DNA of 64,000 bases from Phycisphaerales bacterium (lineage in GTDB: Bacteria; Planctomycetota; Phycisphaerae; Phycisphaerales; SM1A02). The translations under genes and the position numbers were made by a program. The notes under the pieces are model-generated. The model ran no database searches. It was not told the origin of the DNA and was given only the letters and a program-made list of their open reading frames with translations. The stretch spans positions 248,001 to 312,000 of the forward strand of contig JAJDDB010000004.1 in the NCBI GenBank assembly GCA_029260575.1, in the 5' to 3' direction. Of the stretch, positions 29,311-60,065 are shown in pieces. The stretch's first letter is position 1, and every line of letters begins with the position of its first letter.

Positions 29311-30075
29311 TCAAGCATTGAGAGCCGCCGCCAGAGCGCGACGAAGCGAGCGCCGTTTCCATCGTGCATTGGCCCTCCACAGCCACAAGGACATGCCAGT
29401 CAGCGCAGTCAGAATTGCCAGCACGCTGAAGCTTGTCAGCAGCGGGTGATTGAAATCGTCTCTGCTGGAGTAATCCATAGTGTGCAGCATCCAGAAGAAA
29501 TCGAAGACCCGCCATTGTCGGTTACGCCGTGCAGTCACCGCTCCGGTATAAGCGTCGATATAGATGTGCGGGTTTCGCGAGTGATCAAGTACGACTTCGT
29601 ATGCGGGTAGAACCCCGCTCCGATACTGAATTGGGGGATCAGATTCCATGAGCCGAACGGATCGAATGTCTGCGTCTAGCAATGAATCGCGCTTAGCGAG
29701 TTCGCCGGCCGCGCGTTCAGACAACTGCGGAGCGATCTCGGTTCCGTCGAGTGACAACACAGACAAGAGTGCACCACGGGAGTCTCTGATTTCCCATGCC
29801 GCGCCGAGCCCGCGATTCTGTAAGGAGATGCTGCCAATTTCGGCATCTGACTGTATGAGATCGTGCAAAGACAATTGGAATGCCGGGGTCAAAGACCCAA
29901 GAACTGGCGCGTCGAGCGCATCGAACGGCGTCATCGCGCTGTCACGTTCGCCGCGCACAAGGTCCAGCGCGAGAATGCTGAAGACGAAGCCGCCGGTACT
30001 CCAGGCAAGCAATTGCAGGCAGATGATGAGTCCAAGCCAGCGATGTACGACATATGTCGTCTTGCGCAACTTCAT
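29311..30075 (-). CDS. PepSY-type membrane protein
   Basis: A 254-residue inner-membrane protein. It begins with the PepSY_TM signature [20 protein letters not shown] followed by [10 protein letters not shown], and ends with a third hydrophobic segment ([22 protein letters not shown], about 212-233). The periplasmic part includes [22 protein letters not shown], a PepSY-like strand pair. Such proteins occur with metal transport and reductase genes, where they may pass electrons through heme or aid metal handling. Its start overlaps the stop of the copper ATPase by four bases, so it is co-translated with it. Confidence 0.85.
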
Positions 30076-33768: not shown

Positions 33769-33845
33769 CAGCGAGTCTCATGCCCCCCTTGCTTGAACAT
33801 TGCCCGCATGTGTCCCACCAGATGGTGAAGAGATTCGCGACACAT

Positions 33846-34769: not shown

Positions 34770-34784
34770 GAGTGTACTCCAGGC

Positions 34785-38800: not shown

Positions 38801-39625
38801 TGCGGTCTGCTCGAGATCAGAAACGTCTTCAATGAACCCGATACCGCGCACGATGTACTCCGCACGGTTGACCTCCAGCGTTCGCGCACCGACATCAAGA
38901 TTACTCTTGCGGACGGCTGCGATGACCTGTTGTAACGTAACATCGGCTGCGCGCATCGCATCTGGATTCACATCGACCTGGTATTCGCGCACGAATCCGC
39001 CGATGGAGGCAACTTCGCTGACGCCTTCAACGCCGGCCAGTTTGTACCGGACAATGAAATCCTGAATAGAACGCAGTTCATCCGGGCCCCAGCCGCCTGT
39101 TGGGTTGCCTTCAGCATCGCGACCTTCCAGCGTGTACCAGAAGACCTGTCCGAGCGCCGTCGCATCAGGTCCGAGCGCTGGTGATATTCCAGACGGCAGG
39201 GTGCCGGCGGGCAACGAGTTGAGTTTTTCAAGTACACGTGACCGCGACCAATAGAACTCGATGCCATCTTTGAAAACGACATAGATCGTGGAGAATCCGA
39301 AGATTGAATAACTGCGAATGTCCTTGACGCCGGGAATGCCCAGCAGCGCAACCGTCAGGGGATAGCTGATCTGATCATCGATATCCTGCGGGCTTCGACC
39401 TGGCCATTCGGTGAAGACAATCTGCTGGTTCTCGCCGATGTCTGGAATCGCGTCGACCGGCACCGGGCTGCGCGGCAAATCGCCGACCTGCCAGTCAAAC
39501 GGCGCAACAAGTACACCCCAGAAGATCACGCCAACAGTGACCAGAGCGACCACGAGCTTCTGTTCGAGACAGCCGCGAATGATCCGATTCACAACACCAC
39601 GCGGCTCATTGGAGCGATCATTCAT
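35798..39625 (-). CDS. cusA: CusA-like RND metal efflux pump
   Basis: About 1275 residues, from the ATG at 39625 that overlaps the CusB stop by eight bases (upstream in-frame starts would add eight residues). It has the HME-RND layout: one helix (VVALVTVGVIFWGVLVA), a porter domain with PDIGENQQIVFTEWPGRSP and SIFGFSTIYVVFKDG, then further helices, including AIAIGTIVDMGIVLTEN with the proton-relay acidic residues and GIATDDGVIMATRI in the second half. CusA of E. coli is about 1050 residues; here about 100 extra residues with three or four hydrophobic segments lie near 530-705, between the two halves. It would export Cu/Ag ions with CusB and CusC. Confidence 0.92.
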   Translation of the reverse strand: MNDRSNEPRGVVNRIIRGCLEQKLVVALVTVGVIFWGVLVAPFDWQVGDLPRSPVPVDAIPDIGENQQIVFTEWPGRSPQDIDDQISYPLTVALLGIPGVKDIRSYSIFGFSTIYVVFKDGIEFYWSRSRVLEKLNSLPAGTLPSGISPALGPDATALGQVFWYTLEGRDAEGNPTGGWGPDELRSIQDFIVRYKLAGVEGVSEVASIGGFVREYQVDVNPDAMRAADVTLQQVIAAVRKSNLDVGARTLEVNRAEYIVRGIGFIEDVSDLEQTAITARDGQPILIDDIANVSLGPAMRRGVLTKAGEEAVGGVVVVRYGENPMATIQRVKDRIADIASGLPDKVLEDGTQSRVTIVPFYDRTGLIKETLQTLNSAIKQQVYITIIVIVLMVMHLRSSLLIGAMLPITVLMTFIGMKVFGVDANIVALSGIAIAIGTIVDMGIVLTENILRRLNEASPEDSSFEVVYRASAEVGSAVLTAVATTIVGFLPVFTMEAAEGKLFKPLAYTKTFALIASIIIALTILPAAAHVLMGFRIRKGTVRVSASILLLLAGIVIAIWLHAWAGILVVSFAGFYLIQPFLPALLARTLQWSANLVAVVVVLSILAGSWEPLGPEPGLLGNALFIGLIVGGLLLTFWLVRVLFPHILSWALQHKVIALSPAVLIVLFGSTVWLGFDTVFGWLPDSIRRNARIVAVAHEFPGLGSEFMPKLDEGAFLYMPTTMAHASIGEATDILKELDRRIMGVPEVELAVGKIGRVDSPLDPAPISMVETVIQYKSEYKTDDRGVRMKFRVDPVTNEFLRDVSGALIEDEDGQPYRQWRDEVESPQDIWDAIVEAADMPGVTSAPKLQPIETRIVMLQSGFRAPMGIKVYGPDLESIESFALELEKLLKEVPSVQPAAVFADRVVGKPYLEIEIDRQRIARYGIQIADVQEVIEVAIGGKPLTMTVEGRERYPVRVRYLRELRDQPETLGEILVPAPDGTQVPLAELSRIVYRRGPQMIKSEDTFLVAYVLFDKMPGVAEVTVVNDAQRYIQSRIDAGELAVPAGVSFEFSGTYKNQVRAAKRLSVVLPLSLAIIFLLLYFQFRKVSVTLMVFSGVFVAWGGGFIMLWLYAQPWFLDFHLLGTNLRELFQIRQFDLSVAVWVGFLALFGIATDDGVIMATRIEQSMAEEKPKSIDAIRKAVVGGGRLRIRAAVMTSATTILALLPVLTSTGRGADIMVPMAIPTFGGMVVASITWFVVPILYCWTQEWKHRLSSQTASSTHTTNEQSFEEGVSQ

Positions 39626-41696
39626 GATCATGCCCCTCGCGTGTTGCATCGTTCATCGATTCACCAGTTGGCTGTGTTGCCGGCTGCGTTGAAGATTCAT
39701 TCAACGGTGCATGTGCCCGGCGAATTTCACCGCAGCGGAGCATTGACGCGCCGAAATACGGGTTATTTATCGTTGTTCCGCGCTGCAGCCATTCGGCACC
39801 TTTGTTGTCGAAAGCCATCGGGCAATAGGCGACATGCCAGGTTTCACTGCCTTTGTGACCAAACTGTTGTTGCAGACTTATGACGGCTTTGCTCAATGTT
39901 TCGAAGCGAGTGCGAGCATCTTCGATAGTTGTGATGGTTCGATCACTTCGCAGTTTCGCTGCAGCACGCCGCCACGTACCTAGCGGTTCACCGACCAAAC
40001 CGATTTCTTCCACGAAGTCCAGCGCGGTCCTGAGATCTGCAGCCGCCTGGACGAATCCGCCGAGATCATCAGACGCCAACGATTCCTGCGCGTCGAGGTA
40101 CGCTGCGTACACCGGTTTGAGGCTGAAGAGAAACGATTCCGGGACGATTGACGCCGATTCCGGCATTGCCATTCCGGCCACGTGACCTCCGTGCTGATGG
40201 CCGGTTCCACCTCCTCCACCGCCTGGCGACATCATGCTCGGTTTAGCGGCAATCTGCATAGCGCTATCAATGCGGAATGCGCCGTTGACTACAACGTCTT
40301 CACCTTCATCCAGCCCGCTGTTGATGATGTAAAAGTCACCGGCACGTGGGCCGAGGGCAACTTCGCGAACTTCATACGTCGGCTTCTCGGTGTCCGGAAC
40401 CTTCACATAGACGACGGCTCGTTTGCCGGTCAGAAGAGCGGCGGTGCGTGGAATGACGAGCGGTTCGGTTACCAGTGCAGGGTCGCCTACAACACCCAGG
40501 GATTCTGCAGTGACCAGATCCATGTCGCATATATCGCACTGGCCGGGGCCATCTTTCACGACGGTCGGATGCATCGGGCCGACCCATCGACCTGCCAGTT
40601 CATCGGAGACCACAGCGCCGCCTACAGCGACGCGCGGGCGCACCGTGGCCGTCGCAAACATACCCGGTTTCAACTGACGATTCGTGTTATCAACTGCGAC
40701 GCGCACCGCAGCAGTTCGAGTCCGGTCGTCAACGATCGGCTCAATGAACGAAATACGTCCTTCAAAGCGCTTGCCGGGGTGGGCTTCAACTGTGAACGTC
40801 ACCGGCTGACCCCATCGCAGCAGCGGCAACTGCGATTCATAGGCTTCCATATCCAGCCAGAGACGCGACAGATCCGCGACAGTTGCGATCGGAGAACCTG
40901 TCTCGACATAGTCGCCTTCGCGCGCCGCAAGATGTGTGACGATTCCTGCGATCGGCGAATACACTGTCAACCGATCTGTCACATTATTGCCTGATTCAGC
41001 GTCAGCGATCTGCTTTTCAGTCAGACCAAACAGCCGCAGCTTTTCGCGGGCTGCGTCGAGAGTCAGATGCGTGGAGTTCCGGATGATCTCACTGGAAGTT
41101 GTAATGTCATCGAGCGCGATGCGTGCCTGGCGCAATTCATCGAACGCTGCGAGCAGGGTAGGACTGTACATTTCCGCAAGGTGATCGCCTTTGGCGACCG
41201 GCACACCGATGTAATTCACGAACAACCGATCGAGGCGTCCGGGGAAGTACGAGGTTATTCGCGCTACCGATGTTTCGTCGTATGTCAGCCGTCCGTACAG
41301 TCGAACCTCAGCGGTGGGGAAGAACCGACCGACCTTGGCAGTCTCAATTTGGCTCATCTGCGCCGCTGATTCGGTAAGAACGAGCCGACGTTCATTTCCT
41401 TCTCCGGCATCTTCCGTCACCGGAATCAGATCCATGAAACAGATCGGACATTTGGCATCGGGATCAGGCAGGCGAACAGAAGGGTGCATCGAACACGTAT
41501 ACATCTGCGGTTCACTGCTCGAATCGACATTCGTCACAATGGCAGCACCGTCGTCATCACTATTTTGCGGCGTAGGCTTACCAATGCTGTATCCGATGAT
41601 CAATGCGAGAATGATGAGCACGACTGCAATAGCAGCCGATGTGTGCTTCCACACGGCTTTGCCAATGTGTGTAATTGCGGAAGTGAATCTGTTCAT
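39618..41696 (-). CDS. cusB: CusB-like periplasmic adaptor with two metal-binding domains
   Basis: A 692-residue membrane-fusion protein. An N-terminal helix (AAIAVVLIILALIIGY) anchors it. Two heavy-metal-binding domains are seen: YTCSMHPSVRLPDPDAKCPIC near 64-84, and WVGPMHPTVVKDGPGQCDIC inserted in the middle. The adaptor core contains GRLTYDETSVARI and SPIAGIVTHLAAREGDYVETG. The C-terminus is a DUF3347-like domain ending in AYCPMAFDNKGAEWLQ and NPYFGASMLRCGEI, which also carries Cys/Met ligands. It links the RND pump to the outer-membrane channel and probably hands over metal. The start overlaps the CusC stop by four bases. Confidence 0.92.
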   Translation of the reverse strand: MNRFTSAITHIGKAVWKHTSAAIAVVLIILALIIGYSIGKPTPQNSDDDGAAIVTNVDSSSEPQMYTCSMHPSVRLPDPDAKCPICFMDLIPVTEDAGEGNERRLVLTESAAQMSQIETAKVGRFFPTAEVRLYGRLTYDETSVARITSYFPGRLDRLFVNYIGVPVAKGDHLAEMYSPTLLAAFDELRQARIALDDITTSSEIIRNSTHLTLDAAREKLRLFGLTEKQIADAESGNNVTDRLTVYSPIAGIVTHLAAREGDYVETGSPIATVADLSRLWLDMEAYESQLPLLRWGQPVTFTVEAHPGKRFEGRISFIEPIVDDRTRTAAVRVAVDNTNRQLKPGMFATATVRPRVAVGGAVVSDELAGRWVGPMHPTVVKDGPGQCDICDMDLVTAESLGVVGDPALVTEPLVIPRTAALLTGKRAVVYVKVPDTEKPTYEVREVALGPRAGDFYIINSGLDEGEDVVVNGAFRIDSAMQIAAKPSMMSPGGGGGGTGHQHGGHVAGMAMPESASIVPESFLFSLKPVYAAYLDAQESLASDDLGGFVQAAADLRTALDFVEEIGLVGEPLGTWRRAAAKLRSDRTITTIEDARTRFETLSKAVISLQQQFGHKGSETWHVAYCPMAFDNKGAEWLQRGTTINNPYFGASMLRCGEIRRAHAPLNESSTQPATQPTGESMNDATREGHDHE

Positions 41697-43126
41697 GGTG
41701 CGTTGTCCTCCGTCGTGGAGGTTGATATGAGTTCCGACAGCGATGTGCCAACAAGCTGTTCGATGCGCGCGTATGACGTCGCTCGATCAACGAGTGCGCG
41801 TTCAAGTTCCAATTGAAATTCAAGTAGCGTCTGCTGTGTTTCGATCAAGTCAAGAAAGTCGGATGTGCCCTGCTCGAATCCGCCAAGGGATGCCTGCAAA
41901 GATTCCTTTGCCTTGGGCAATAGAGTGTCGCGATATAATTCAATTCGGCGTCGCGCATCGTGATGTTCGAACAGCGCCTCCTGCAATTCAGTGGCCAATC
42001 GGTTTCGCGTGTCACTGCGCCTGCTGGCTACAGCAAGTCGCCGCGCGATCGCTGCACGGACACCTGCGTCGTACTTCTCACGCCAGATCGGCAGGTTAAT
42101 CGACAATGTTGCCAGAACGGCGTCATCACCACTTTCCGTCAGTCCCGCCACATCGCGTTCGCCGATTGCGGTGTATGCCACGCCGACTGTCAAGTCCGGC
42201 AAACCGTCCTTGCGGGCAATCTCTGAGCCGATGCGCTCACGTTCAATTTCTTCCTGCAATGCGATCAATTCCGGATTGCGCGTCTGGATCTCAGCATGCA
42301 AGACTTTAGTTGAGACATCCACAACGTGAACGGCAACGGATTTTGGCCAAGGTACGTCCGCATCTGATCGACGATTAAGCGCAGCATTCAGTCGTGCGGA
42401 GTACGGGATGCGCAGGTCATTCAATCGGCGGAGACGATCTTCCATTGATCCGAGATCAACCTGGATCCTGATGATGTCGGGATGGCCGGCTGTCGCAACT
42501 CGATACCGGGTTCTTGCGACACGTTCGAACTGCTGAAGCAACTCTATGTTTTCAGCAGTGATGTCAATCGATTGTTTGAGGAAGAACAGATCGTTGTATG
42601 CTTGTTCCACGTTGTAGAAGAGGGCAAGCCGCGCCGCTTCGAATCGCTGATACGCGGCATTGGCATTCCGTGCTGCTGCGTCTTCACGATCCTGGAGTTT
42701 TCCAAACCATGGAAATGTCTGCGCAAGCGAGACCGTGTGCTGCATCGGCCCGACGCGGGTTTCCACCTCACCGAGGAAGTACCCATAGGTGAAGCGAGGA
42801 TCGGGTAATGCACGCACCTGCGGCAGCTGTTCAACCGCTGCCTTCCAGTCATAGAACTTGGCTTCAAGCCCGGGATTACTCAGCGCCGCGTAGCGAAGAT
42901 AATCCTGCAGTGTGGCATCATCATCGAGGACAGGCAGTTCGTCGTGAGATTGTGAAGAACCTGCGCGGGCAGAATCTCCATACCGAGGATTTGTGTTCGT
43001 TGAACCGACATCGGAATGCTCCGCAGTCTTGAACGAATCTGCGAACGGACTTGGACTGTTGCACCCGGAAACTAGGGTGGCTGTCAGCGCGATGCCGAAG
43101 AGGCCGCGCAAGTGACGTTGCTTCAT
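41693..43126 (-). CDS. cusC: TolC-type outer-membrane efflux protein (CusC-like)
   Basis: A 477-residue outer-membrane factor. The N-terminus has a lipoprotein signal with the lipobox LVSGC (Cys at about 22). Two long helical repeats typical of TolC follow, the first with NPGLEAKFYDWKAAVEQLPQ, PDPRFTYGYFLGEVETRVGP and SLAQTFPWFGKL, as often seen in metal-efflux members. The C-terminal part has the matching repeat EIERERIGSEIARKDGLPDL. It would form the outer-membrane duct for the CusA/CusB-like pump. First gene of the tripartite efflux block. Confidence 0.92.
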   Translation of the reverse strand: MKQRHLRGLFGIALTATLVSGCNSPSPFADSFKTAEHSDVGSTNTNPRYGDSARAGSSQSHDELPVLDDDATLQDYLRYAALSNPGLEAKFYDWKAAVEQLPQVRALPDPRFTYGYFLGEVETRVGPMQHTVSLAQTFPWFGKLQDREDAAARNANAAYQRFEAARLALFYNVEQAYNDLFFLKQSIDITAENIELLQQFERVARTRYRVATAGHPDIIRIQVDLGSMEDRLRRLNDLRIPYSARLNAALNRRSDADVPWPKSVAVHVVDVSTKVLHAEIQTRNPELIALQEEIERERIGSEIARKDGLPDLTVGVAYTAIGERDVAGLTESGDDAVLATLSINLPIWREKYDAGVRAAIARRLAVASRRSDTRNRLATELQEALFEHHDARRRIELYRDTLLPKAKESLQASLGGFEQGTSDFLDLIETQQTLLEFQLELERALVDRATSYARIEQLVGTSLSELISTSTTEDNAP

Positions 43127-49397: not shown

Positions 49398-49832
49398 TCA
49401 TGACGCAGACCCGGGTTTGCCATTCGATGATGTGGGGAGAAAAACCGAGAGTGTTGTCTGGCGCAGCGTCTGCTTGAATTGATCTTGTGCATTGCGAAGA
49501 CAATCATGCAATGCGCATCCATCACCCACGCCGCATATGCCGCCGCCGAACGGACACATCTCTGTTCGATCCTCACGCTCAAAGAGACGAAAAATATCGT
49601 AGAGCACAATCTGCTCAGGGCAGCGGGCCAGTGCGTAACCACCGCCCGGCCCCCGGACGCTCCTGACCAGGCCGGCCTGTGCGAGACTACTCAGGATCTT
49701 TGCAACTGATGGTTGTTTCAAACCGCGATCGCGGGCTATGGCGGCTGCCGAGAGAAGTGTTCGGCCATCGTCGAACACCTCCGCCAACCTGCTTAGAGAA
49801 GCCATGGCGTACGTTGTTTGTTTTCCAAACAT
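49398..49832 (-). CDS. Rrf2-family regulator with conserved Cys cluster
   Basis: A 144-residue regulator from the ATG at 49832 (MFGKQTTYAMASLSRL). The winged helix is typical of the Rrf2 family: LKQPSVAKILSSLAQAGLV followed by SVRGPGGGYALAR. The C-terminal part carries four Cys in CPFGGGICGVGDGCALHDC, a pattern that in IscR and NsrR binds an iron-sulfur cluster sensitive to iron-sulfur status or nitric oxide. The gene is divergent from the nitrite-oxidoreductase-like operon, which ends with a RIC-type repair protein; NsrR-like control by nitric oxide is therefore likely but not proven. Confidence 0.9.
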   Translation of the reverse strand: MFGKQTTYAMASLSRLAEVFDDGRTLLSAAAIARDRGLKQPSVAKILSSLAQAGLVRSVRGPGGGYALARCPEQIVLYDIFRLFEREDRTEMCPFGGGICGVGDGCALHDCLRNAQDQFKQTLRQTTLSVFLPTSSNGKPGSAS

Positions 49833-49923
49833 CAGCACGGCTTTCTATTTGCAACGCGACCACAGCAGTCGAGCCCGGCATTGTCGCCGAGCCAGCCAAA
49901 ACCATTCTCATGAAAGTGTACTC

Positions 49924-49937
49924 TTATTTACGAATAA
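49924..49937. promoter_or_regulatory. Possible Rrf2 operator between divergent genes
   Basis: TTATT-TACG-AATAA is a perfect dyad in the AT-rich middle of the 200-base space between the Rrf2 gene and the respiratory operon. Rrf2 regulators commonly bind AT-rich dyads at such positions. No clear -35/-10 pair was assigned. Confidence 0.35.
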
Positions 49938-50033
49938 ATGGTCTGATTATCTTGAATTAGTTGGGATTCGCTGATAGCGTGCCGCACATACGCGATGAAG
50001 CAGTCCTGACGACCGTCCATTGGAAGTGCCCAA

Positions 50034-51290
50034 ATGAACTCCGTGCAGGATATTTCAACCAGCCACGACCCTCATGGGGATCATCTCGCCCATCATTTTG
50101 GCACACACCGGCAACAGGCCGATGCAGCGAAACTTGGGATGTGGCTTTTTCTGGCGACCGAAATCCTGCTCTTCGGCGGGCTCTTCTGTGCGTATGCGGT
50201 GTATCGAGGCAATCGCCCGGAACTCTTCGATTACGGCAGCCAATTTCTTGATACCAGTTGGGGGGCTATCAACACCATCGTGTTGATTTTCAGTAGCTTC
50301 ACCATGGCAATTGCAGTGTGGTGCGCTCAACATGCGCGCAAAGGACTGACTGCATTCTTCCTTGTGTTGACACTGTTGTGCGGCATCGATTTTCTTGGCA
50401 TCAAGTACATCGAGTACATGCACAAATTCCATGAAAACCTCGTCTGGGGTGTCGGCTTTTATGAACCGGCACATCCACCGCCCGCCGCTCTCGAGGATGC
50501 TTTGACAGGATCCGACCTGTCACCGGCAGCGGCAACGCTGCTGCCCGGCGATGAAGCCAACGGGCGCATCCTATATCGCAATACCTGCGCTGCTTGTCAC
50601 GGCGCGCGTGGCGAGGGTCTTCCAAGTCTTGGAAAACCCCTGCAGACAAGCGATTTCGTAGCCGGGCTCGACGACAGGGGTGTCGTCGAGTTTCTCAAGG
50701 TCGGGCGCATGCCAAATGACCCGTTGAACACCACCGGCCAGGCAATGCTGCCGCGCGGTGGGAATTCGAGGCTGTCGGACCAGGATCTGTATGACATTAC
50801 TGCATTCCTGCGCGTGCTTATGAGTCGCCCCGATGGCGAGCAACCAGCAGGTGCGCCGGCCAATAGAGATCAGGCGAGCGCGCGAAATGAAGAAGGCGAC
50901 GCGCAAGAGGCGTTCAGTATTCCACGTTCGATCGTGCCGGTTGCTGAGATCGGGCCGCTCGGGTTTTCACAGGATGCACTTGGTCACGCGTACGGCCGCA
51001 AGCCGGCGATGGACAGTCACACCGCGAAGGAAACAAAAATCGATCCGCGATACGACCCGAACAGGCCGCCGGATGCGCACTTGTTCTTCGGTATCTATTT
51101 CGCAATGACCGGCCTGCATGGTGTTCATGTCGTTATTGGCCTGATCGTCATCACCTGGCTTCTGATCCGAACTCTACGCGGGCACTTCAGTCACTCGTAC
51201 TTCACGCCGGTCGATCTCGGTGGCCTGTACTGGCACATCGTAGATGTGATCTGGATTTTTCTCTTCCCGTTGCTCTACCTGATTCACTGA
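50034..51290 (+). CDS. Cytochrome oxidase subunit III-like protein with inserted cytochrome c domain
   Basis: A 418-residue membrane protein; the start follows GGAAG. Helices 1-3 (LGMWLFLATEILLFGGLFC, NTIVLIFSSFTMAIAVW, LTAFFLVLTLLCGIDFLGI) and helices 4-5 (LFFGIYFAMTGLHGVHVVIG, YWHIVDVIWIFLFPLLYL) match five-helix COX3/NorE proteins. Between helices 3 and 4, about 170-270, sits a class I cytochrome c domain with CAACH at 185-189 and a distal Met, probably in GRMPND. In the five-helix topology this loop is periplasmic, which is where heme c is attached. No subunit I or II is encoded nearby. It is the first gene of the NXR-like operon and may carry electrons from it. Whether it pairs with a distant oxidase or NO reductase is unknown. 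Confidence 0.88.
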   Translation: MNSVQDISTSHDPHGDHLAHHFGTHRQQADAAKLGMWLFLATEILLFGGLFCAYAVYRGNRPELFDYGSQFLDTSWGAINTIVLIFSSFTMAIAVWCAQHARKGLTAFFLVLTLLCGIDFLGIKYIEYMHKFHENLVWGVGFYEPAHPPPAALEDALTGSDLSPAAATLLPGDEANGRILYRNTCAACHGARGEGLPSLGKPLQTSDFVAGLDDRGVVEFLKVGRMPNDPLNTTGQAMLPRGGNSRLSDQDLYDITAFLRVLMSRPDGEQPAGAPANRDQASARNEEGDAQEAFSIPRSIVPVAEIGPLGFSQDALGHAYGRKPAMDSHTAKETKIDPRYDPNRPPDAHLFFGIYFAMTGLHGVHVVIGLIVITWLLIRTLRGHFSHSYFTPVDLGGLYWHIVDVIWIFLFPLLYLIH

Positions 51291-51332
51291 CGATCGATTG
51301 TGCGTTCGACAATCGCACACCTGGAGCGTCCG

Positions 51333-53225
51333 ATGGAAACGACTGATTCACACCTAATTCAGAATGACAGAGTGCGCCAACCAAAGCTCCCGCGGGGGGT
51401 CGTTGTCGGCGCTGTCATCAGCGTGTTTGCGATCAATCTTGGAATTCTGTTCTACGCCGTTCGTGTCGCGCTGCCACATGATGGCGCACAACCTGCGGCA
51501 ACTGCAGCAAACATGGCAAGCGCGCTGACAGCGTCAACTGGCGGCTCAGAGTCGTCGGTGCCCGGGCAACCGGCAGTCTCACTGGTACCGGCGCGCAGCG
51601 AAGTGCACAACCCGATTGATCTGCCCAGCGCCGCAGAGGTTGCGCACCTGTATGTGCAGCATTGTGCAGCATGTCACGGACAGGACGGCCGAGGTTCCGG
51701 GCCTGCGGCTGAGCAGCTGTACCCCAAGCCACGCGACTTTGTGGACAGCCCGTTTCGATTCGCATCGACCGGAGGAACGAACGACCAGATTATCGCTGCC
51801 ATCGAACGCACGATTCATCAGGGCGTCCCGCGGAGCGCGATGCCGGGCTTCGGCGGCGTGCTGACGGAGCGGCAGATTGCCGGCCTGTCACGACATGTAT
51901 TGAAATTGCACGGCGAAGACGGCGCTGCTGCGCCCTTTGTGGAATTCGATCTTGGACAGCGCCCGCCGGTCACAGCTGAGTTGCTTGCGCGTGGCGAAGA
52001 GTTGTACACAGCACTGACCTGCATCACCTGCCACGGACCCAATGGACACGGTTTTGGCGATGCAGCCCGCGGGCTGCGCGATTCAATCGGGCGCCCGGTT
52101 CGCCCGGCCGATCTTGCATCGGGTCTGTTTAAATCCGGACAGAACTCGCAGAGCATTGCGCGCACGATTCTCAATGGTGTGCCCGGCACTCCGATGACCG
52201 GGTACGAATCAATGCTCATCCACGACAATGCTGACGGATCGCGCAACACCTTCGACACGTGGGCCATCGTCTCATACATCGAGAACCTGACGCCGCGTCA
52301 GGCGTACACCGGTGAATCATCCGGCGCGTCTATTCGAGTACATACAGCGTCAAGTGACGCCATGCTCAGCGATCCGACGCACATCTCCTGGCTTGGCATC
52401 AAGCCGGCGACGCTTGCGGTGCGTCCACTCTGGCAGCGGCAGGAACGAACGACATCAATCGATGTGCGTTGTGTTCGCACTTCGACGCAGATCGCCATCT
52501 GCATTGACTGGCGCGACGATTCGCTGGACATCGCGCGTGATATGGGTATGTACCCCGATGCTGTGGCCATGATGTTTTCGCTTGGCACTGAAGTTCCAGC
52601 TCTGCCTATGGGTGTCAATGTCGAAGGCTTTCAGCCCCGGCAACCGGTGAACATTTGGCACTGGAAAGCGGACCGGCAGTTTGACGCTATCACCGGCCAA
52701 CGACATGCGGGGACTGACCTGCAGGAACTCTTCGATGGTCGCTGGTACTTGTTCACCGAAAAGTCAGCCGCGTTGCTGCGCGATATGCATGCGGAGGCAT
52801 ATCCCGCACAGGTGTCCTATGACGGCGCTGCTGTGGAACCGATCTACAACACCGCAGAAACAGCCGGCAACGTGACTGCCCAGCAGTTCCTTACCGATCG
52901 AGCAGTGCTCGAGGCGAATGCATTGGGCTTCGGCTCACTGTCACCACAACCACCCGACCAGCAGCACATCGACAGTTGCGCCGCGTGGACGGATGGACTA
53001 TGGCGCGTGGTGATGGTGCGCACGCTTGATTCGAGTGATGACAACGATGTTCGTTTCGTCTCTGCGGAGCGCATTCCGGTTGCCCTTGCCGTCTGGAATG
53101 GGTCAAAGGATGACTCGGCAGGAGTCAAGCTGATCACGAGTTGGCACTGGCTTGCGCTTGATGGCGAACGCAGCATGGCGGGCGGATCCACAACAAACAA
53201 CCAATTGAGGAACGGTGATGAGTAG
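51333..53225 (+). CDS. NXR-like gamma subunit: two cytochrome c domains fused to a heme b domain
   Basis: A 630-residue protein from the ATG at 51333 (after GGAG). A membrane anchor lies near 22-45 (VVVGAVISVFAINLGILFY). Two cytochrome c domains follow: CAACH at 111-115 and CITCH at 230-234, with candidate Met ligands in SAMPGFGG and TPMTGYE. From about 340 the sequence resembles the heme b-binding gamma subunit of type II DMSO-reductase enzymes (ethylbenzene dehydrogenase/NxrC group), with DPTHISWLGI, an MMFSLGTEVPALPMG block and IPVALAVWNGS...DSAGVKLITSWHWLAL at the end. It should take electrons from the beta subunit and pass them through heme b to heme c. Its stop overlaps the alpha start by eight bases. 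Confidence 0.85.
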   Translation: METTDSHLIQNDRVRQPKLPRGVVVGAVISVFAINLGILFYAVRVALPHDGAQPAATAANMASALTASTGGSESSVPGQPAVSLVPARSEVHNPIDLPSAAEVAHLYVQHCAACHGQDGRGSGPAAEQLYPKPRDFVDSPFRFASTGGTNDQIIAAIERTIHQGVPRSAMPGFGGVLTERQIAGLSRHVLKLHGEDGAAAPFVEFDLGQRPPVTAELLARGEELYTALTCITCHGPNGHGFGDAARGLRDSIGRPVRPADLASGLFKSGQNSQSIARTILNGVPGTPMTGYESMLIHDNADGSRNTFDTWAIVSYIENLTPRQAYTGESSGASIRVHTASSDAMLSDPTHISWLGIKPATLAVRPLWQRQERTTSIDVRCVRTSTQIAICIDWRDDSLDIARDMGMYPDAVAMMFSLGTEVPALPMGVNVEGFQPRQPVNIWHWKADRQFDAITGQRHAGTDLQELFDGRWYLFTEKSAALLRDMHAEAYPAQVSYDGAAVEPIYNTAETAGNVTAQQFLTDRAVLEANALGFGSLSPQPPDQQHIDSCAAWTDGLWRVVMVRTLDSSDDNDVRFVSAERIPVALAVWNGSKDDSAGVKLITSWHWLALDGERSMAGGSTTNNQLRNGDE

Positions 53226-56200
53226 CGATACGTTTCACAACGGCAACGCGGGCGATGATGCGCACACCGGCTTCAATCGCAGGAGATTCCTGCAGACACT
53301 CGGAGCAGGCACGCTTGCAGCATGGGGCTGGAATCCTGTCTCGTCTGCATTGGCTGCGATACAGGGTGTATCCAATCCTCTCGAGTACTACCCCGGGCGC
53401 GATTGGGAATCGGTGTACCGCGATCAATACCGATACGACCGAACGTTCACGTGGATTTGTGCGCCCAATGACACGCATATGTGTCGGCTTCGCGCATTTG
53501 TGCGCAACGGCATCATTATTCGCAGCGAGCAGAATTATGACCACGATCGCTGCGGCGATCTGTATGGCAATACGTTGACCAAGGCATGGAATCCACGCGG
53601 GTGCCTGAAGGGTTACACATTCCACAAACGCGTGTATGGTCCTAATCGGCTGCGCGGTCCTGTGCTGCGAGCAGGCTGGAAACAATGGGTCGATGCAGGT
53701 TGCCCGAGCCTTTCTGATGACCCGGCGCTGCGCACGAAGTACATGTTTGACAACCGCGGCACCGATTCGTTTGTGCGCGTCTCCTGGGAACAGGCTACGT
53801 CGTACGTTGCCAAGGCAATGGTTGCCATTGCAGGGACATACAGCAATGAGGACGGTCGTCGTCGCCTCATAGCTGACGGATACGACCCCGCGATGCTCAC
53901 AAAATGGAATAGCGCGGGTACACGGCTGATGAAGTTCGGCTCGAACCTGCCGATCCACGGCCTGGTCGGGAAGTTTGGTATCTACCGTTTTGCGAACATG
54001 CTCGCGCTGCTGGATCACAATGTCCGTGGCGTAGGGCCGGACAAGGCGCAGGGCGCGCGCGATTGGAATGAATATACATGGCGTGGTGATCAGGCGCCGG
54101 GTACACCGTACGCCACCGGCTTGCAGGCATGCGACATGGACTTCAGCGATCTGCGTTCCAGCAAGTTCATTCTCCAGGTCGGTAAGAACCTGGTTGAAAA
54201 CAAAATGCCTGAAAGCCACTGGCTCAACGAGACGATGGAGCGCGGGGCGAAAATCGTTTGCATTACGCCCGACTACAGCGCGCCATCGGCCAAGGCTGAC
54301 TACTGGATCGGCACGCGCCCTGGACTCGGCGATCTTGCATTGTTGCTGGGTGTTGCCAAATTGATCATTGACAACGGCTGGACTGATGAGCCGTTTATCA
54401 AGCAGTTCACAGATCTCCCATTGTTGGTGCGCACGGATACGTTGCGCCGGCTGCGTCCGGAAGATGTCATCGCAGGCTACGAACCGAAGGACATTCGCGG
54501 CGGGCCGAGTTATTCCGTGCAGGGGATCACCGATGCGCAGCGCGCACAAATCGGTGATTTCTGCATGTGGGATGCGCAAGCGAACAAAGTCGTTGCAGTA
54601 AGCCGCGATGAAGTCGGCAAACACATTGCGTTTGATCCCGCATTGACCGGCGAGTTTACGATCACGACCACTGATGGCGAGTCCGTGACGGTCATGCCGA
54701 TCTACGAAATGTATCGCCGACACTTACGTGATTACGATGTCGAGACGGCCGCCCAGATCAGCGGCGCGAAGCCGGAATTGATTGAACGTCTTGCCAAAGA
54801 CATGGCAACTATCAAACCGGCTGCCATTCACCTCGGTGAAGGCATCAATCATTATTTCCACGCCACATTGCACAACCGTGCGTGTTTTCTGCTGATGGCG
54901 CTGACCGGGAATTATGGCCGACATGGCTCGGGCGTGTATTCATGGGCAGGCAACTACAAAGGCGCGCTCTTTCAGGCCGCGCCGTGGGCCGGGCCCGGCG
55001 TGGGCGCATTCATAGATGAAGACCCATTTCATCCCGTGCTCGATGAAGACGGCGAGCTGACGCATGAACACCTGCATCACTATGCCTCTGCCGAGGAGCC
55101 GAGCTACTGGGCGCATGGCGAACAGATTCTGCGCGTCAATACACCTGAAGGCGAGAAAGTCTTCACCGGCAACACGCATCTGCCCACGCCGACCAAAATG
55201 CTCTGGTACAACAATGCGAACTTCATAAACCAGGCGAAGTGGGTGTATGAGCTGATTCAGAATGTCCTTCCCAAGATGGACATGATCGTCGATCAGCAAA
55301 TCGAATGGACCGGTTCAGCGGAATATTCGGATGTAGTTCTGCCTGCCAACTCATGGGTTGAGTTTCAGGATCACGAAGTCGGGGGGTCATGCTCAAACCC
55401 GTTCATCCAGATCTGGGGGCGCGATGGCGTTGCGCCGGTGCATGATACCAAAGACGATGCGGTGATCTTTGCGATGGTTGCCAACGCATTGACTGCTGAG
55501 ACGGGCGACAGTCGGTTTGCTGATTTCTGGAAGTTCGTCACTGAACGAAAGAGCAAAGTTTACATTCAACGGGTGTTCAACAGTTGCACAACTACACGCG
55601 GCAAAGATGGACCGTACGACGTAGATAAGATGATTGCTGGCGAATACGGCGGAGAACCAGGCGCGGCACTATTCCTGTTCCGAACCCATCCGCGCATTCC
55701 GTTCTACGAACAGGTCAACGACAGCATTCCGTTCTATACCGATTGCGGTCGAGTTTCAGCGTATTGCGACCTTCAGACTGCGATCGATGCCGGTGAAAAC
55801 CTGATCGTGCATCGCGAAGGTGTGGAAGCCACGCCGTACCTGCCGAATGTCATTGTTTCGACGAGCGAGTACATTCGGCCGAGGGATTGGGGTATCGATC
55901 CGGGTGAGATGGACGGCGATCTGCGCACGGTGCGCAATATCAAGATGCCGTGGAGCAGCGCGAGTCGAACGGTCAATCCGCTTTGGGACAAGGGGTTTCA
56001 CTTCTTCTGCTCGACGCCCAAGAGCCGCCACACCGTGCATTCATCGTGGTCAGCCGTGGACTGGCACGCGCTCTGGTCGAGCAACCACACCGACACGCGC
56101 CGCCGCGATAAGCGCACACCCGGCGTTGCGGATCGACAGATCCAGATGAACCCACAGGCCGCAATCGATCAGGGTTTGAACGAGGGCGACTACGTGTACG

Positions 56201-56721
56201 TTGATGCAAACCCTGCGGACCGACCGTATCGCGGGTGGAAACCGACGGACTTCCGGTACCGCGCGTTCCGCTGCATGGTGCGCGTGAAGTTCAATCATGC
56301 GCTGCCGTATCACTTTACAATTCTCAAACACACTGGGTGGATTGCCACGGAGCGTAGTGTCAAGGCGCATGAATCTCGTGCGGATGGTCGCGCGCTGGCA
56401 GAAGACACCGGGTATCAATCCAGTTATCGCTACGGATCGCATCAATCGATCACGCGCAACTTTCTGCCGCCGATGCACCAAACGGATGATCTGTTCCATA
56501 AGAAGACCGGCAGCATGGGTTTTGTCTTCGGTTTTGATGTGGATAATCACGCCATCAATACCGTACCCAAGGAAACTCTGGTGCGCGTCACCAAGGCGGA
56601 AGACGGCGGCCTCAATGGCGTTGGTCCGTGGCAGCCGGGCACGACCGGCTTTGGTCCGGTTGGTACTTCGGATGTAAACCTGGCCTACCTCTCGGGCGGA
56701 TTGACAACGGTCAAGAGCTGA
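53218..56721 (+). CDS. nxrA: Nitrite oxidoreductase/nitrate reductase-like alpha subunit
   Basis: A 1167-residue molybdopterin oxidoreductase of the type II DMSO-reductase family. It begins with a Tat signal (FNRRRFLQTLGAGTLAAWGW), so it is folded in the cytoplasm and exported. The FS0 cluster region has C81, H87, C89 (WICAPNDTHMC) and C129 (NPRGCLKGYTF). By eye, Asp306 in QACDMDF aligns with the Mo-ligand Asp222 of NarG, and CITPDYSAPSAKADYWI follows as in that family. The NDTH motif and overall length resemble the periplasmic NXR of Nitrospira and anammox bacteria more than cytoplasmic NarG. The direction of catalysis (nitrite oxidation, nitrate reduction, or another oxyanion such as chlorate or selenate) cannot be read from the sequence. 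Confidence 0.85.
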   Translation: MSSDTFHNGNAGDDAHTGFNRRRFLQTLGAGTLAAWGWNPVSSALAAIQGVSNPLEYYPGRDWESVYRDQYRYDRTFTWICAPNDTHMCRLRAFVRNGIIIRSEQNYDHDRCGDLYGNTLTKAWNPRGCLKGYTFHKRVYGPNRLRGPVLRAGWKQWVDAGCPSLSDDPALRTKYMFDNRGTDSFVRVSWEQATSYVAKAMVAIAGTYSNEDGRRRLIADGYDPAMLTKWNSAGTRLMKFGSNLPIHGLVGKFGIYRFANMLALLDHNVRGVGPDKAQGARDWNEYTWRGDQAPGTPYATGLQACDMDFSDLRSSKFILQVGKNLVENKMPESHWLNETMERGAKIVCITPDYSAPSAKADYWIGTRPGLGDLALLLGVAKLIIDNGWTDEPFIKQFTDLPLLVRTDTLRRLRPEDVIAGYEPKDIRGGPSYSVQGITDAQRAQIGDFCMWDAQANKVVAVSRDEVGKHIAFDPALTGEFTITTTDGESVTVMPIYEMYRRHLRDYDVETAAQISGAKPELIERLAKDMATIKPAAIHLGEGINHYFHATLHNRACFLLMALTGNYGRHGSGVYSWAGNYKGALFQAAPWAGPGVGAFIDEDPFHPVLDEDGELTHEHLHHYASAEEPSYWAHGEQILRVNTPEGEKVFTGNTHLPTPTKMLWYNNANFINQAKWVYELIQNVLPKMDMIVDQQIEWTGSAEYSDVVLPANSWVEFQDHEVGGSCSNPFIQIWGRDGVAPVHDTKDDAVIFAMVANALTAETGDSRFADFWKFVTERKSKVYIQRVFNSCTTTRGKDGPYDVDKMIAGEYGGEPGAALFLFRTHPRIPFYEQVNDSIPFYTDCGRVSAYCDLQTAIDAGENLIVHREGVEATPYLPNVIVSTSEYIRPRDWGIDPGEMDGDLRTVRNIKMPWSSASRTVNPLWDKGFHFFCSTPKSRHTVHSSWSAVDWHALWSSNHTDTRRRDKRTPGVADRQIQMNPQAAIDQGLNEGDYVYVDANPADRPYRGWKPTDFRYRAFRCMVRVKFNHALPYHFTILKHTGWIATERSVKAHESRADGRALAEDTGYQSSYRYGSHQSITRNFLPPMHQTDDLFHKKTGSMGFVFGFDVDNHAINTVPKETLVRVTKAEDGGLNGVGPWQPGTTGFGPVGTSDVNLAYLSGGLTTVKS

Positions 56722-56739
56722 ACCTGGCGGAGCACTTTC

Positions 56740-57120
56740 ATGCATGATCACGACGAACACACACACGCTGATGACATTCATCCTGCACAGCGCCCAGTCG
56801 AGCCGGACCATCCGATGATGCTTGATGGTGGCGTCATCGATGGCGACACCGCCTTCATGGTTCGCTGCATGGTCGAGGAACTCATCCTGATGGGCATGCC
56901 TTTCGCAGAGGTGTGTGAGAAGTCACGCGATCCAAACTACCAGGGCCTGTATGCAGCGCGTGCAAGCCTCGGCGATGAACAGGTCGATGCACTTCTCGAA
57001 GAAGTAGCAAAGCGCATTGGCGCGCACTCGCGGCGCGTTGCTGAAGCGGCAGGCCAATCACATTCAGCCACACTCACGATTAACGCGGGTACTGATACCA
57101 CACCGAGCAATGGAGCCTGA
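56740..57120 (+). CDS. Unknown small protein between alpha and beta subunits
   Basis: A 126-residue protein, start after GGAG. The N-terminus is His/Asp-rich (MHDHDEHTHADDIHPAQRP), followed by a helical core MVRCMVEELILMGMPFAEVCEK with two Cys, RDPNYQGLYAARASLGDEQV and a basic segment. The C-terminal 30 residues are low in complexity. I know no function. Its place between the alpha and beta genes, 18 bases behind the first and two bases before the second, suggests a role in cofactor insertion, assembly or as an accessory subunit. Confidence 0.75.
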   Translation: MHDHDEHTHADDIHPAQRPVEPDHPMMLDGGVIDGDTAFMVRCMVEELILMGMPFAEVCEKSRDPNYQGLYAARASLGDEQVDALLEEVAKRIGAHSRRVAEAAGQSHSATLTINAGTDTTPSNGA

Positions 57121-57122
57121 CA

Positions 57123-58415
57123 ATGCCTTCCGTACACAACTGGCAACTCGGCCGGCCAATGGACTATCCCTACGAGGAACACCACCCGCGTACGCAGTTC
57201 GCATTCGTGTTCAACATCAACCGCTGCATCAACTGCCAGACATGCACGATGGCGTGCAAGAGCACGTGGACGTTCGGCCGCGGTCAGGAACACATGTGGT
57301 GGAATAACGTCGAAACCAAACCGTTCGGTGGATACCCGCAGAACTGGGATTCGAAACTGCTGGGCATGCTCGAGCAGGCCAACCCCGGCGGGCAGACGTG
57401 GGATGCTACCAAGAAGGAGTCGAAAGAAGCGCCGTACGGTCGGTTCGATGGCCAGACTGTGTACGACGCAGCCAAGGGATACGCTGGTCCTGATGGTCCG
57501 AAACGCGCGCTCGGATATTTGCCGGAAGCTACTGAGTGGGAGTCGCCGAACATGCACGAGGAGAGTGCAACCGGCGAAGCATGGAGCGGCAAGGCGTTCG
57601 GCAGTTCAACACAGCTTCCCGAACACAAGGTCTGGTACTTCTATCTCGCGCGACTGTGCAATCACTGCACCTACCCTTCTTGCCTCGCAGCGTGTCCGCG
57701 CCAGGCAATCTATAAGCGCCCGGAAGACGGCATTGTGCTGATCGATCAATCACGCTGCAGGGGCTACCAGCGCTGCGTCGAAGCGTGTCCGTACAAGAAG
57801 TCGATCTATCGTCCGACGACTGGCACCAGCGAGAAATGCGTCGGCTGTTATCCGCGCATTGAAGGTAAGGATCCGCTGCTCAGTCCTAACGGCGAACCTT
57901 GCGAAACCCGCTGCATGACTGCGTGTCCGGGCAAGATCCGATTGCAGGGGCTTGTCAGCATCGATGAAGATGGAACCTGGACGGTCGATCCGAGCAGTCC
58001 GATCTACTACCTCGTGCGCGATCGCAAGATTGCGCTGCCGCTGTATCCGCAATTCGGAACAGAACCGAACGGTTTCTATATTCCGCCGCGTTGGGTTCCC
58101 AGAGGATATCTCACGCAGATGTTCGGCCCCGGCGTTGAGCATTCGCTGGAACAATATTGCTGTCCGGACCGGGAGTTGCTCGCGGTGCTGCAACTGTTCC
58201 GCACAACACAGCAGATCATATTCAGGTTTGAAATTGAACAAGGACCCAAGGTCGCTGAGATTGAAGTCACTATGCCCAACGGCACGACCAAAGCCCAGGA
58301 AATCTTCAATGACACCGTCATCGGATTCAACAAGTTCGGCCAGGAAGTCGTTCGTGTGACGATCGAAGAGCCGACGTTCGAGCGACCCGCCGACATACAC
58401 GTCAACAGTATTTGA
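57123..58415 (+). CDS. nxrB: Nitrite oxidoreductase/nitrate reductase-like beta subunit (iron-sulfur)
   Basis: A 430-residue ferredoxin-like subunit without a signal peptide, so it probably leaves the cytoplasm bound to the Tat-exported alpha subunit. Cys groups for four clusters are present: CINCQTCTMACK at 35-46, LCNHCTYPSCLAACP near 178-193, CRGYQRCVEACP near 211-222 and KCVGCYPRIEG with CETRCMTACPG further on. In the third group the second Cys is replaced by Tyr (CRGYQRC), as in NarH/NxrB-type proteins that hold a [3Fe-4S] cluster there. The length matches NxrB of Nitrospira (about 430). It carries electrons from the Mo site to the gamma heme b. Confidence 0.9.
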   Translation: MPSVHNWQLGRPMDYPYEEHHPRTQFAFVFNINRCINCQTCTMACKSTWTFGRGQEHMWWNNVETKPFGGYPQNWDSKLLGMLEQANPGGQTWDATKKESKEAPYGRFDGQTVYDAAKGYAGPDGPKRALGYLPEATEWESPNMHEESATGEAWSGKAFGSSTQLPEHKVWYFYLARLCNHCTYPSCLAACPRQAIYKRPEDGIVLIDQSRCRGYQRCVEACPYKKSIYRPTTGTSEKCVGCYPRIEGKDPLLSPNGEPCETRCMTACPGKIRLQGLVSIDEDGTWTVDPSSPIYYLVRDRKIALPLYPQFGTEPNGFYIPPRWVPRGYLTQMFGPGVEHSLEQYCCPDRELLAVLQLFRTTQQIIFRFEIEQGPKVAEIEVTMPNGTTKAQEIFNDTVIGFNKFGQEVVRVTIEEPTFERPADIHVNSI

Positions 58416-58434
58416 TCGCGGAAGGTATTCAGAC

Positions 58435-59271
58435 ATGATCGCCACCCAACAGCAGCACATTGTCACACTTCAATGCCGGTGGATTCTTGCGACCGCATTG
58501 GCGACCGCATTTGCCGATCCGCGCACGCCTGCAGCTGATCCCGGCCAAGCGATCAACGGCGAGTTGCTTTCTGGTGCATGGTTGGAACTCACCGAGCCGT
58601 CTACTGATGTCAAGTTGGCGCCGCTCGGTCTTGGTGAACGTCGATGCACCGAAGCATCCGCCGAGTCGTTATCCGACTGGCTCAATCGTGATCTTGAACG
58701 ACGAGCGCGTGTGTATCAGGAAGTCTTCGGGCTGGTTGTCAACAAGCAATGTCCGCAATACGAAACAGAGTATTGCGAATGGAAGGACACGACCTACCGT
58801 TCGCAAAAAATGGCTGATATCGCAGGGTTTTACCATGCGTTCGGCGTCGAACCATCTCGAACGAATCCAGATCGACACGATCATGTTGCCCATGAATTGA
58901 CGTTTGTCGCACTGCTGTTGGAGAAACAATGTCACGCCATCTCCGGGCAGGGCGCGCAAGCCGCTGAGCATGCTGAACTGTGTCGCAGCGCACTTGCTGC
59001 GTTCGTCACCGATCACATCCGTTGGTGGGTGCCTGCCTTTGCGCATGCACTGCAGCGACGCATTCAGCAATTGACGGACTCTGTCGAAGCTGAACTTGCG
59101 GACGATCTGCAATGTCTTGCAGGCGTCGCCCAGTTCCTGTCAGCGTGGGCTGCAGTGGAGCGACAGTCCTGCAACGTCGAACCATATCTTCGAATTGTGC
59201 AGCCGAGCGTGCAGGTGGTGGATGCGGAAGACAAGGACTGCGGGATGTGCAGTCAATGTACACCCACGTAG
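58435..59271 (+). CDS. TorD/NarJ-type assembly chaperone
   Basis: A 278-residue helical protein of the TorD family, start after GGAAGG. Typical residues are YQEVFGLVVNKQCPQYETEY, then MADIAGFYHAFGVEP near 145-160 and DHVAHELTFVALLLEKQ. Such chaperones bind the Tat-signal region of the alpha subunit and aid insertion of the molybdenum cofactor before export. The C-terminus has a CGMCSQC tail, which is unusual and may bind a metal. It is co-directional with the NXR genes, 19 bases behind the beta gene. Confidence 0.88.
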   Translation: MIATQQQHIVTLQCRWILATALATAFADPRTPAADPGQAINGELLSGAWLELTEPSTDVKLAPLGLGERRCTEASAESLSDWLNRDLERRARVYQEVFGLVVNKQCPQYETEYCEWKDTTYRSQKMADIAGFYHAFGVEPSRTNPDRHDHVAHELTFVALLLEKQCHAISGQGAQAAEHAELCRSALAAFVTDHIRWWVPAFAHALQRRIQQLTDSVEAELADDLQCLAGVAQFLSAWAAVERQSCNVEPYLRIVQPSVQVVDAEDKDCGMCSQCTPT

Positions 59272-59336
59272 TACGTGGCGACCACCTTGCCGTGTCATGT
59301 GCCCAATAACACTTTCCCTAATTCTGGAGCTACGAA

Positions 59337-60065
59337 ATGGTCAGCACTCACATTGAGCCTACAAGAACAGTCGGTGAACTCGTCAAGGAGCGACCAGCTC
59401 GATCGCGCGTCTTTGAGAGTCTCAAGGTGGATTACTGCTGCGGCGGCAAGCTGCCGTTGACTGAGGCATGCGCGAAACGTGGCCTTGAAATCGAAAGCGT
59501 GTTGCAACAACTTGCAGAAGCCGACGCTCGCGCTACCGAGGGGGCCGCAGCAATCATCGACGCCGATGCGATGGGGTTGACTGAACTCGTCGACCACATC
59601 GAGCAAACGCACCACGCATATCTCAAAAGTGAGTTGCCCCGCCTGGGCATGATGGTGCGCAAAGTCGCAGCGGTTCATGGCGAACACCATCCGTGGATGC
59701 TGAAGATCGACGGCGTCTATTCCGGATTCGCTGCCGAACTTCAATCGCACATGATGAAGGAAGAGCAGATCCTTTTTCCTTGTATCCGGAATCTTGAGCA
59801 GCGCAAACAAGGCGTGTCCGGCGAACCACAAAGCGTAGCGAACCCGATTCGCGTCATGGAACACGAACACCAGCAAGCGGGTGATGCGCTGCAGCGAATG
59901 TCGGAACTGTCTGGCGGTTTTGCACCACCTGAAGGTGCGTGCAACACGTTCTGCGCCATGCTTGATGGTCTGGCACAACTGGAACGTGACATGCATCAAC
60001 ACGTGCATAAGGAAAACAACGTGCTGTTTCCCAAAGCTATTGAGTTGGAACAGCAGAACTCTTAG
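59337..60065 (+). CDS. RIC/YtfE-like di-iron protein for iron-sulfur repair
   Basis: A 242-residue protein; start after GGAG. The N-terminal ScdA_N domain has TVGELVKERPARSRVFE and the VDYCCGGKLPLTEAC signature. The hemerythrin-like part shows His/Glu ligands in QTHHAYLKSELPRL, GEHHPWML, HMMKEEQILFP, MEHEHQQAGDAL and HVHKENNVLFP. Family members repair iron-sulfur clusters damaged by nitric oxide or oxidants and can be under NsrR control. Its place behind the NXR-like genes, with a Cys-rich Rrf2 gene at the other end, fits protection from nitric oxide produced or met by this respiration. Confidence 0.92.
   Translation: MVSTHIEPTRTVGELVKERPARSRVFESLKVDYCCGGKLPLTEACAKRGLEIESVLQQLAEADARATEGAAAIIDADAMGLTELVDHIEQTHHAYLKSELPRLGMMVRKVAAVHGEHHPWMLKIDGVYSGFAAELQSHMMKEEQILFPCIRNLEQRKQGVSGEPQSVANPIRVMEHEHQQAGDALQRMSELSGGFAPPEGACNTFCAMLDGLAQLERDMHQHVHKENNVLFPKAIELEQQNS

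Follow-up and report, generated by a model that had tools for sequence, protein, structure and literature searches.

Virtually all natural nitrate comes from the oxidation of nitrite, and the closest described relative of the system treated here is the nitrite oxidoreductase (NXR) of the anammox bacterium Candidatus Kuenenia stuttgartiensis, an enzyme which runs both ways and whose Vmax with an artificial donor is higher for nitrate reduction (PMC8387239). Anammox NxrA, the alpha subunit, groups with that of Nitrospirota and Nitrospinota (PMC12758564, PMC6050957), and the RefSeq tree in PMC12758564 holds two non-anammox planctomycetes only, which do not group with the anammox members. Genes of the NXR type have been described from Planctomycetota since 2023 (PMC10732223, PMC10359470), and the nxrA community of two oxygen-deficient ocean regions has been described as mostly Planctomycetota, anammox Scalindua included (PMC10359470). 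A more distant case is that of the planctomycete Thermogutta terrifontis, in which complex III (bc1) genes adjoin nar (PMC5673643). The present work deals with a stretch of 64,000 nucleotides, hereafter the window (positions 248,001 to 312,000 of contig JAJDDB010000004.1, assembly GCA_029260575.1), from a Phycisphaerales bacterium, and with the genes at positions 49398-60065 of it, where an operon almost certainly encodes an enzyme of the NXR type, predicted to be periplasmic and membrane-anchored.

The identity of the enzyme is carried by its similarity to the Kuenenia complex. In a search of PDB, residues 21-1166 of the alpha subunit matched Kuenenia NXR-A (7b04_B) with 1451 bits, the next kinds of enzyme being 4ydd (which we take to be the perchlorate reductase PcrA) with 216 bits, the ethylbenzene dehydrogenase EbdA with 161 and NarG with 109; alpha is 53.7% identical to chain B of 7b04 over 947 columns of the printed part of that chain. 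The beta subunit matched NXR-B (7b04_A) with 555 bits against 209 for the next entry, while in gamma the EB_dh domain matched 7b04_C (NxrC) and the N-terminal part a diheme cytochrome, 6h5l_B, presumably also a Kuenenia protein. The ligands are kept as well: Cys67, Asn70 and Asp71 of Kuenenia NXR-A correspond to Cys82, Asn85 and Asp86, its molybdenum ligand Asp275 corresponds to Asp292, and the Met and Lys that bind heme b recur in all 72 EB_dh domains aligned, that of the window included (nine repeat loci and the ten domains shorter than 180 residues were left out of this count, and a few genomes are still counted twice). The four cluster motifs which a first-pass annotation, made from the letters of the sequence, had read in beta are matched by 16 cysteines in groups, from C35 to C268, which fit four Fe-S clusters, and its description of gamma as a heme b/heme c protein is borne out by two CXXCH motifs, the EB_dh heme-b domain and an N-terminal hydrophobic helix. 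Near the N-terminus of alpha a twin-arginine sequence, NRRRFLQTLGAGTL, was spotted by eye. As regards the NarGHI type, alpha reached 137.6 bits with TIGR01580 against a cut-off of 1084, and gamma, composed of EB_dh and cytochrome c, is not NarI. Perchlorate reductase, chlorate reductase, ethylbenzene dehydrogenase and NarG were ruled out as identities by score, ClrA and NarG also by the tree.

The alpha phylogeny, proposed beforehand as a check on the NXR-like assignment, places the protein in one clade with anammox NxrA, with NarG, ClrA and the inferred nitrate reductase of T. terrifontis outside it. A first tree was calculated with FastTree from 97 alphas, namely those of 45 of 46 named loci (L051 was too short), further genome loci, four plasmid sequences, E. 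coli NarG, the window and 7b04, and was rooted on NarG (L140), ClrA (L155) and a plasmid enzyme (L156); a second one was calculated with IQ-TREE and a mixture model from 30 chosen rows. The window lies in nested FastTree clades of 8, 48 and 86 rows, each with a support of 100, and the largest also takes in 7b04 and all 14 rows of f48, which is taken for the anammox family since one of these rows, L072, is identical to 7b04. In the second tree the clades holding the window have 7, 15 and 26 rows, the last including the anammox sequences, with 100/100 in every case. Outside the 86-row clade were found two f76 sequences of about 50% identity, a group of about 40% identity (L095-L098 with the haloarchaeal L153), a second haloarchaeal sequence (L154) and the outgroup. 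A position inside a clade of known non-NXR enzymes, which would have spoken for another substrate, did not occur among these references, which are without Nitrospira, Nitrospina, Nitrotoga and SerA; the NXR test thus covers the anammox part of the family, and for the placement of Nitrospira, Nitrospina and Nitrotoga NXR the source is PMC11009272, together with PMC6050957 and PMC12758564.

The NDTH motif, to which the first-pass annotation had pointed, is present in alpha but does not serve as a diagnostic of NXR, being found also in the inferred T. terrifontis protein and replaced by NCTH in six rows that branch as sisters to anammox NxrA. These six non-anammox alphas (L061, L062, L063, L075, L080 and L081, the last 64% identical to the Kuenenia alpha) carry NCTH in place of the NDTH of the anammox sequences and the window, so that their FS0 cluster is predicted to have cysteine ligands only. 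Another observation concerns L006, from a metagenome-assembled genome (MAG) labelled Omnitrophota, and L007 (Sumerlaeota), whose NxrA is nested among Phycisphaerales sequences, either by inter-phylum gene transfer or because the MAGs are mislabelled.

All eight genes of the first-pass annotation are present where it had placed them, and Pfam and NCBIfam back every named one. The genes, and the sites within them, are as follows:

49398-49838, minus strand: divergent regulator of the Rrf2 family (PF02082 1.8e-27; rrf2_super over its cut-off, NsrR and IscR models only under theirs)
50034-51290, plus strand: COX3 with a monoheme cytochrome c in the loop between membrane helices 3 and 4, protein P0006 (Pfam COX3 and Cytochrome_CBB3)
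50586-50600, plus strand: CXXCH heme motif of the inserted cytochrome c, at aa 185 of the COX3 protein
51300-53225, plus strand: gamma subunit, NxrC-like, with N-terminal hydrophobic helix, diheme cytochrome c and EB_dh heme-b domain (PF09459 1.9e-22; Cytochrome_CBB3 in two stretches)
53215-56721, plus strand: alpha subunit, NxrA-like, with putative Tat-type (twin-arginine) leader (7b04_B match, 1451 bits)
53458-53484, plus strand: CAPNDTHMC of alpha, with FS0 Cys82, substrate Asn85, FS0 Asp86 and Cys90 (aligned with Kuenenia C67/N70/D71; ligand roles from PMC8387239)
54088-54090, plus strand: Asp292 of alpha, aligned to the Kuenenia Mo ligand Asp275 (D in 97 of 97 rows)
56740-57120, plus strand: NXR-associated small protein of an unnamed family, four-helix core at aa 37-93 (no Pfam or NCBIfam match; model pLDDT 84.4)
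57123-58415, plus strand: beta subunit, NxrB-like, with cysteine groups for four Fe-S clusters (7b04_A, 555 bits; cysteine positions)
58435-59271, plus strand: assembly chaperone of the TorD/NarJ type (PF02613 4e-16; TIGR03482 3.9e-9, under its cut-off)
59337-60065, plus strand: RIC (YtfE/ScdA) iron-sulfur cluster repair protein (TIGR03652, 245.9 bits against a cut-off of 204.7)

From the COX3-cytochrome c gene to RIC the gaps on the plus strand are 9, -11, 18, 2, 19 and 65 bases, so that the tight spacing claimed for these seven genes is confirmed, none being more than 65 bases from the next; the Rrf2 gene lies 195 bases from the COX3-cytochrome c gene. A GDPD gene 149 bases 3' of RIC and the FGGY (glycerol-kinase-like) gene that comes after it look unrelated to the operon. 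Since the region sits inside a contig of 516 kb in a genome of 4.11 Mb (95.3% complete, 1.86% contaminated), its origin from a stray contig is unlikely. The Phycisphaerae-type host supposed earlier also stands: G458 and G393 are of the host's order, with small genes identical to those of L010 (Planctomycetota bacterium KLAP200) and L050 (Phycisphaerales bacterium UBA5793). For hydrazine synthase alpha no match was obtained in the host, in a search likewise silent in the controls.

Around the related alphas, 46 loci could be compared, 27 of them with flanks of at least 5 kb on both sides. The same-strand order gamma, alpha, small gene, beta and TorD was intact in 31 by the tblastn thresholds used, the remaining 15 loci being rearranged, cut by a contig end or with some member undetected. 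As the core arrangement is common to these 31 loci, it is not new to the host genome, and the new gene arrangement proposed by the first-pass annotation holds only in part: the core order is widespread in MAGs, whereas for the small family and for COX3-cytochrome c beside nxr no description was found in the open-access papers searched, supplements excluded. A gamma that combines EB_dh and two CXXCH in a single frame is shared by 39 of the 46; among the other seven, two are cut (L013, L041), the frame of L044 is without CXXCH, and none was seen in L016, L036, L040 and L042, where in three cases alpha lies at the contig edge. RIC (at least 100 bits) was detected in the flanks of eight loci, and so was Rrf2 (at least 50 bits, in eight), some several kb off.

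The small protein encoded between alpha and beta is a conserved family of its own. When an alignment of 64 members was searched against 294 planctomycete genomes, the gene was found in 28, all of them among the 69 genomes with an NxrA-type gene, a co-occurrence with a hypergeometric chance of 1.5e-20, kinship disregarded; the alignment was built from nxr loci, some in the same genomes, and scoring was limited to 16 first-look candidates per genome, so copies that have diverged may escape. In L104 the small gene precedes beta though alpha is elsewhere, and none was detected in the 15 anammox (f48) genomes of the sample or in the loci of 16-19 kb L092-L098, L100 and L108. The protein was modelled with a mean pLDDT of 84.4, with its four-helix core at aa 37-93; Foldseek gave nothing at E <= 0.001, and the best Z of VIA-align, 5.6 among 156 aligned chains, has little meaning for a small helical bundle. 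The structural search thus gives no kin, which does not make the fold new. From its synteny alone, we take the protein for an NXR assembly or stabilising factor. Within the NXR clade, the family is a marker for much of the part that is not anammox, and its product is a candidate for the missing factor in producing NXR in another host, the metalloproteins of anammox metabolism being described as not expressible heterologously (PMC8387239).

As for the other accessory gene, the COX3-cytochrome c fusion of the first-pass annotation was right as to both domains, its form now being refined, with the cytochrome c lying in the loop that joins COX3 helices 3 and 4. P0006 matches PF00510 with 55 bits (cut-off 23.8) and shares 52% identity with the COX3 of the host's caa3 oxidase. 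In its model the five-helix membrane core is confident and leads Foldseek to subunits III of bo3 and bcc-aa3, the top seven rows having TMt 0.75-0.84 and E 8e-4 to 2e-3. A search of 14 related genomes with P0006 produced matches in 13, and among the 24 distinct COX3-like genes of these and the host the CXXCH motif is present in three and absent from the 21 others; all three lie in or beside an nxr cluster. The host itself has two COX1 genes, elsewhere in its genome and both beside COX3 genes, as well as a cluster of alternative complex III and caa3 oxidase with ActD, COX2 with cytochrome c, and COX1. The three loci with COX3-cytochrome c (the window, L006 and L007) group weakly in the alpha tree (81/42). 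In L007 the order is nxr, Rrf2, COX3-cytochrome c, pentaheme cytochrome, ActB-like gene, NrfD and monoheme cytochrome, and the genes beside nxr read as a putative alternative complex III. That an oxidase subunit III with cytochrome c is encoded together with NXR suggests that electrons pass from nitrite to an oxidase, and gives the possible nitrite oxidation of non-anammox members a concrete, testable link to O2.

According to the mechanism we propose, nitrite would be oxidised at the molybdenum of alpha, its electrons passing along the Fe-S chain to heme b and the diheme cytochrome c of gamma and from there to the cytochrome c in COX3. This paralogue of the host's oxidase subunit III would dock on an aa3/caa3 oxidase, so that the electrons would reach O2. 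TorD would mature alpha, the small protein would be a factor for the assembly or stability of NXR specifically, probably working together with beta, and RIC and Rrf2 may protect the Fe-S clusters from nitric oxide (NO) made from nitrite. The enzyme would be reversible and the host is probably an organotroph, with nitrite as an extra electron donor. Judged from the genes, nitrite oxidation through the oxidase has about an even chance of being the main direction. The wider proposal, by which non-anammox planctomycetes would have a dedicated nitrite-oxidising chain, with NXR physically wired to an aa3/caa3 oxidase by COX3-cytochrome c and with a new assembly protein specific to NXR, is advanced tentatively and must be regarded as rather doubtful.

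Several facts weigh against an oxidase-linked nitrite oxidation. Since the Kuenenia enzyme works both ways (PMC8387239), sequence cannot give the direction, and the ACIII-like (alternative complex III) cluster joined to nxr in L007 is compatible with either, as it could equally send quinol electrons to nitrate. Full-length COX3-cytochrome c was found in only 3 of 47 loci, the window, L006 and L007 (two of the 46 related ones), therefore most relatives must use another partner. Moreover, the copy in L007, with identities of 31-35%, is diverged and was not matched by Pfam COX3, and the cytochrome part of P0006 is poorly modelled. There is no COX1 in the nxr cluster of the window, which makes the docking of COX3-cytochrome c a conjecture. 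Finally, no RuBisCO and no clear ATP-citrate lyase were found in the host, the Citrate_bind match being a succinate-CoA-ligase-like protein.

The same enzyme might mainly be a periplasmic respiratory nitrate reductase, in which quinol would feed gamma by way of alternative complex III and cytochrome c, the electrons then passing to beta and alpha, and this has a real, if smaller than even, chance of being true. It would agree with the Kuenenia kinetics mentioned above, in which the higher Vmax is that of nitrate reduction with an artificial donor (PMC8387239), with the ACIII-like genes adjoining the nxr cluster of L007, and with RIC, which fits the nitrosative stress of nitrate respiration; furthermore, in T. 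terrifontis, which is in culture, a distant homologue that lies beside bc1 genes has been read as a nitrate reductase (PMC5673643). Nevertheless, that inferred protein is only 39.5% identical to the alpha of the window and lies outside its clade. In addition, the host already possesses a Nap-type cluster, NapA-like/NapB with ferredoxin, NrfD and a second Rrf2 gene (L133, contig C35; NapA under the equivalog cut-offs), so nitrate reduction may not need the NXR-type enzyme. Nor would nitrite have an obvious outlet under nitrate reduction, since in the host there were no NirK (copper nitrite reductase; the search matched seven controls, one over the cut-off), no NrfA over the cut-off (one weak fragment) and, of the COX1 family, to which NO reductases belong, two genes only, both in oxidase clusters; NirS was not searched. 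We also know of no part played by COX3 in nitrate reduction. It may be added that Rrf2 regulators adjoin both nitrate/nitrite systems of the host.

An improbable explanation is that a reversible enzyme is retained to balance redox or to detoxify nitrite, with neither reaction supporting growth. An NxrA-type gene (E <= 1e-100) is present in 34 of 248 genomes of the class, the host counted, and in none of 15 other sampled members of the host's family, which makes the occurrence of the operon sporadic; this would suit such a role, as would the lack of RuBisCO in the host and the adjacency of RIC and Rrf2, but that so large an operon of several subunits is intact and has electron carriers of its own suggests a part in energy conservation. 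It is very improbable that the enzyme is one of the type II DMSO-reductase family acting on chlorate, perchlorate, selenate or a hydrocarbon, to which the EB_dh domain in gamma and a match of alpha to TIGR03479 (337.7 bits) might point: that match is far under the cut-off of 984.75, the scores or identities to perchlorate reductase, EbdA and ClrA are far lower, and ClrA falls outside the clade, SerA not being among the references.

Elsewhere in the window, positions 29311-43126 hold a heavy-metal island with an outer-membrane efflux protein, a CusB/HlyD-type adaptor, an RND pump, TRASH/YHS proteins and a metal P-type ATPase. At 11054-15286, on the minus strand, a protein of 1410 aa with Chlamydia-type polymorphic membrane protein repeats is encoded, and at 22696-26901 genes for circularly permuted ATP-grasp, Alpha-E, proteasome-fold and transglutaminase proteins stand in a row.

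Among described systems, the Planctomycetota MAGs of the Oslofjord tunnel have the same alpha type, there called putative NxrA (Suarez et al. 2023, PMC10732223). Seven of the related loci are OFTM isolates, and OFTM22, OFTM39, OFTM341 and OFTM389 are named as nxr-bearing in that paper, in whose abstract, section 10 and further passages neither the small family nor COX3-cytochrome c by nxr was found described. The same paper reports a six-gene cluster, unexplained there, with a pentaheme cytochrome, an Fe-S/molybdopterin protein, NrfD, ActD, a CcoP-type subunit and a further membrane subunit, and from this gene list it reads like alternative complex III. With the Nar-type enzyme inferred for T. 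terrifontis (THTE_1509-1507) the window has the alpha/beta pair and NDTH in common, but the alphas differ by the low identity and the separate clade already given. P0006 shares the five-helix core of oxidase subunit III (CyoC/CtaE/COX3) and differs by the cytochrome c in its loop. With Kuenenia NXR-ABC (7b04) the window shares full-length homology of alpha and beta, the molybdenum Asp, the substrate Asn, the FS0 of three Cys and one Asp, and the heme-b Met/Lys of gamma. In contrast to Kuenenia, its gamma is fused to a diheme cytochrome c and a hydrophobic N-terminal helix, the EB_dh proteins of the anammox loci L093 and L100 being without CXXCH, and its operon adds the small gene and COX3-cytochrome c.

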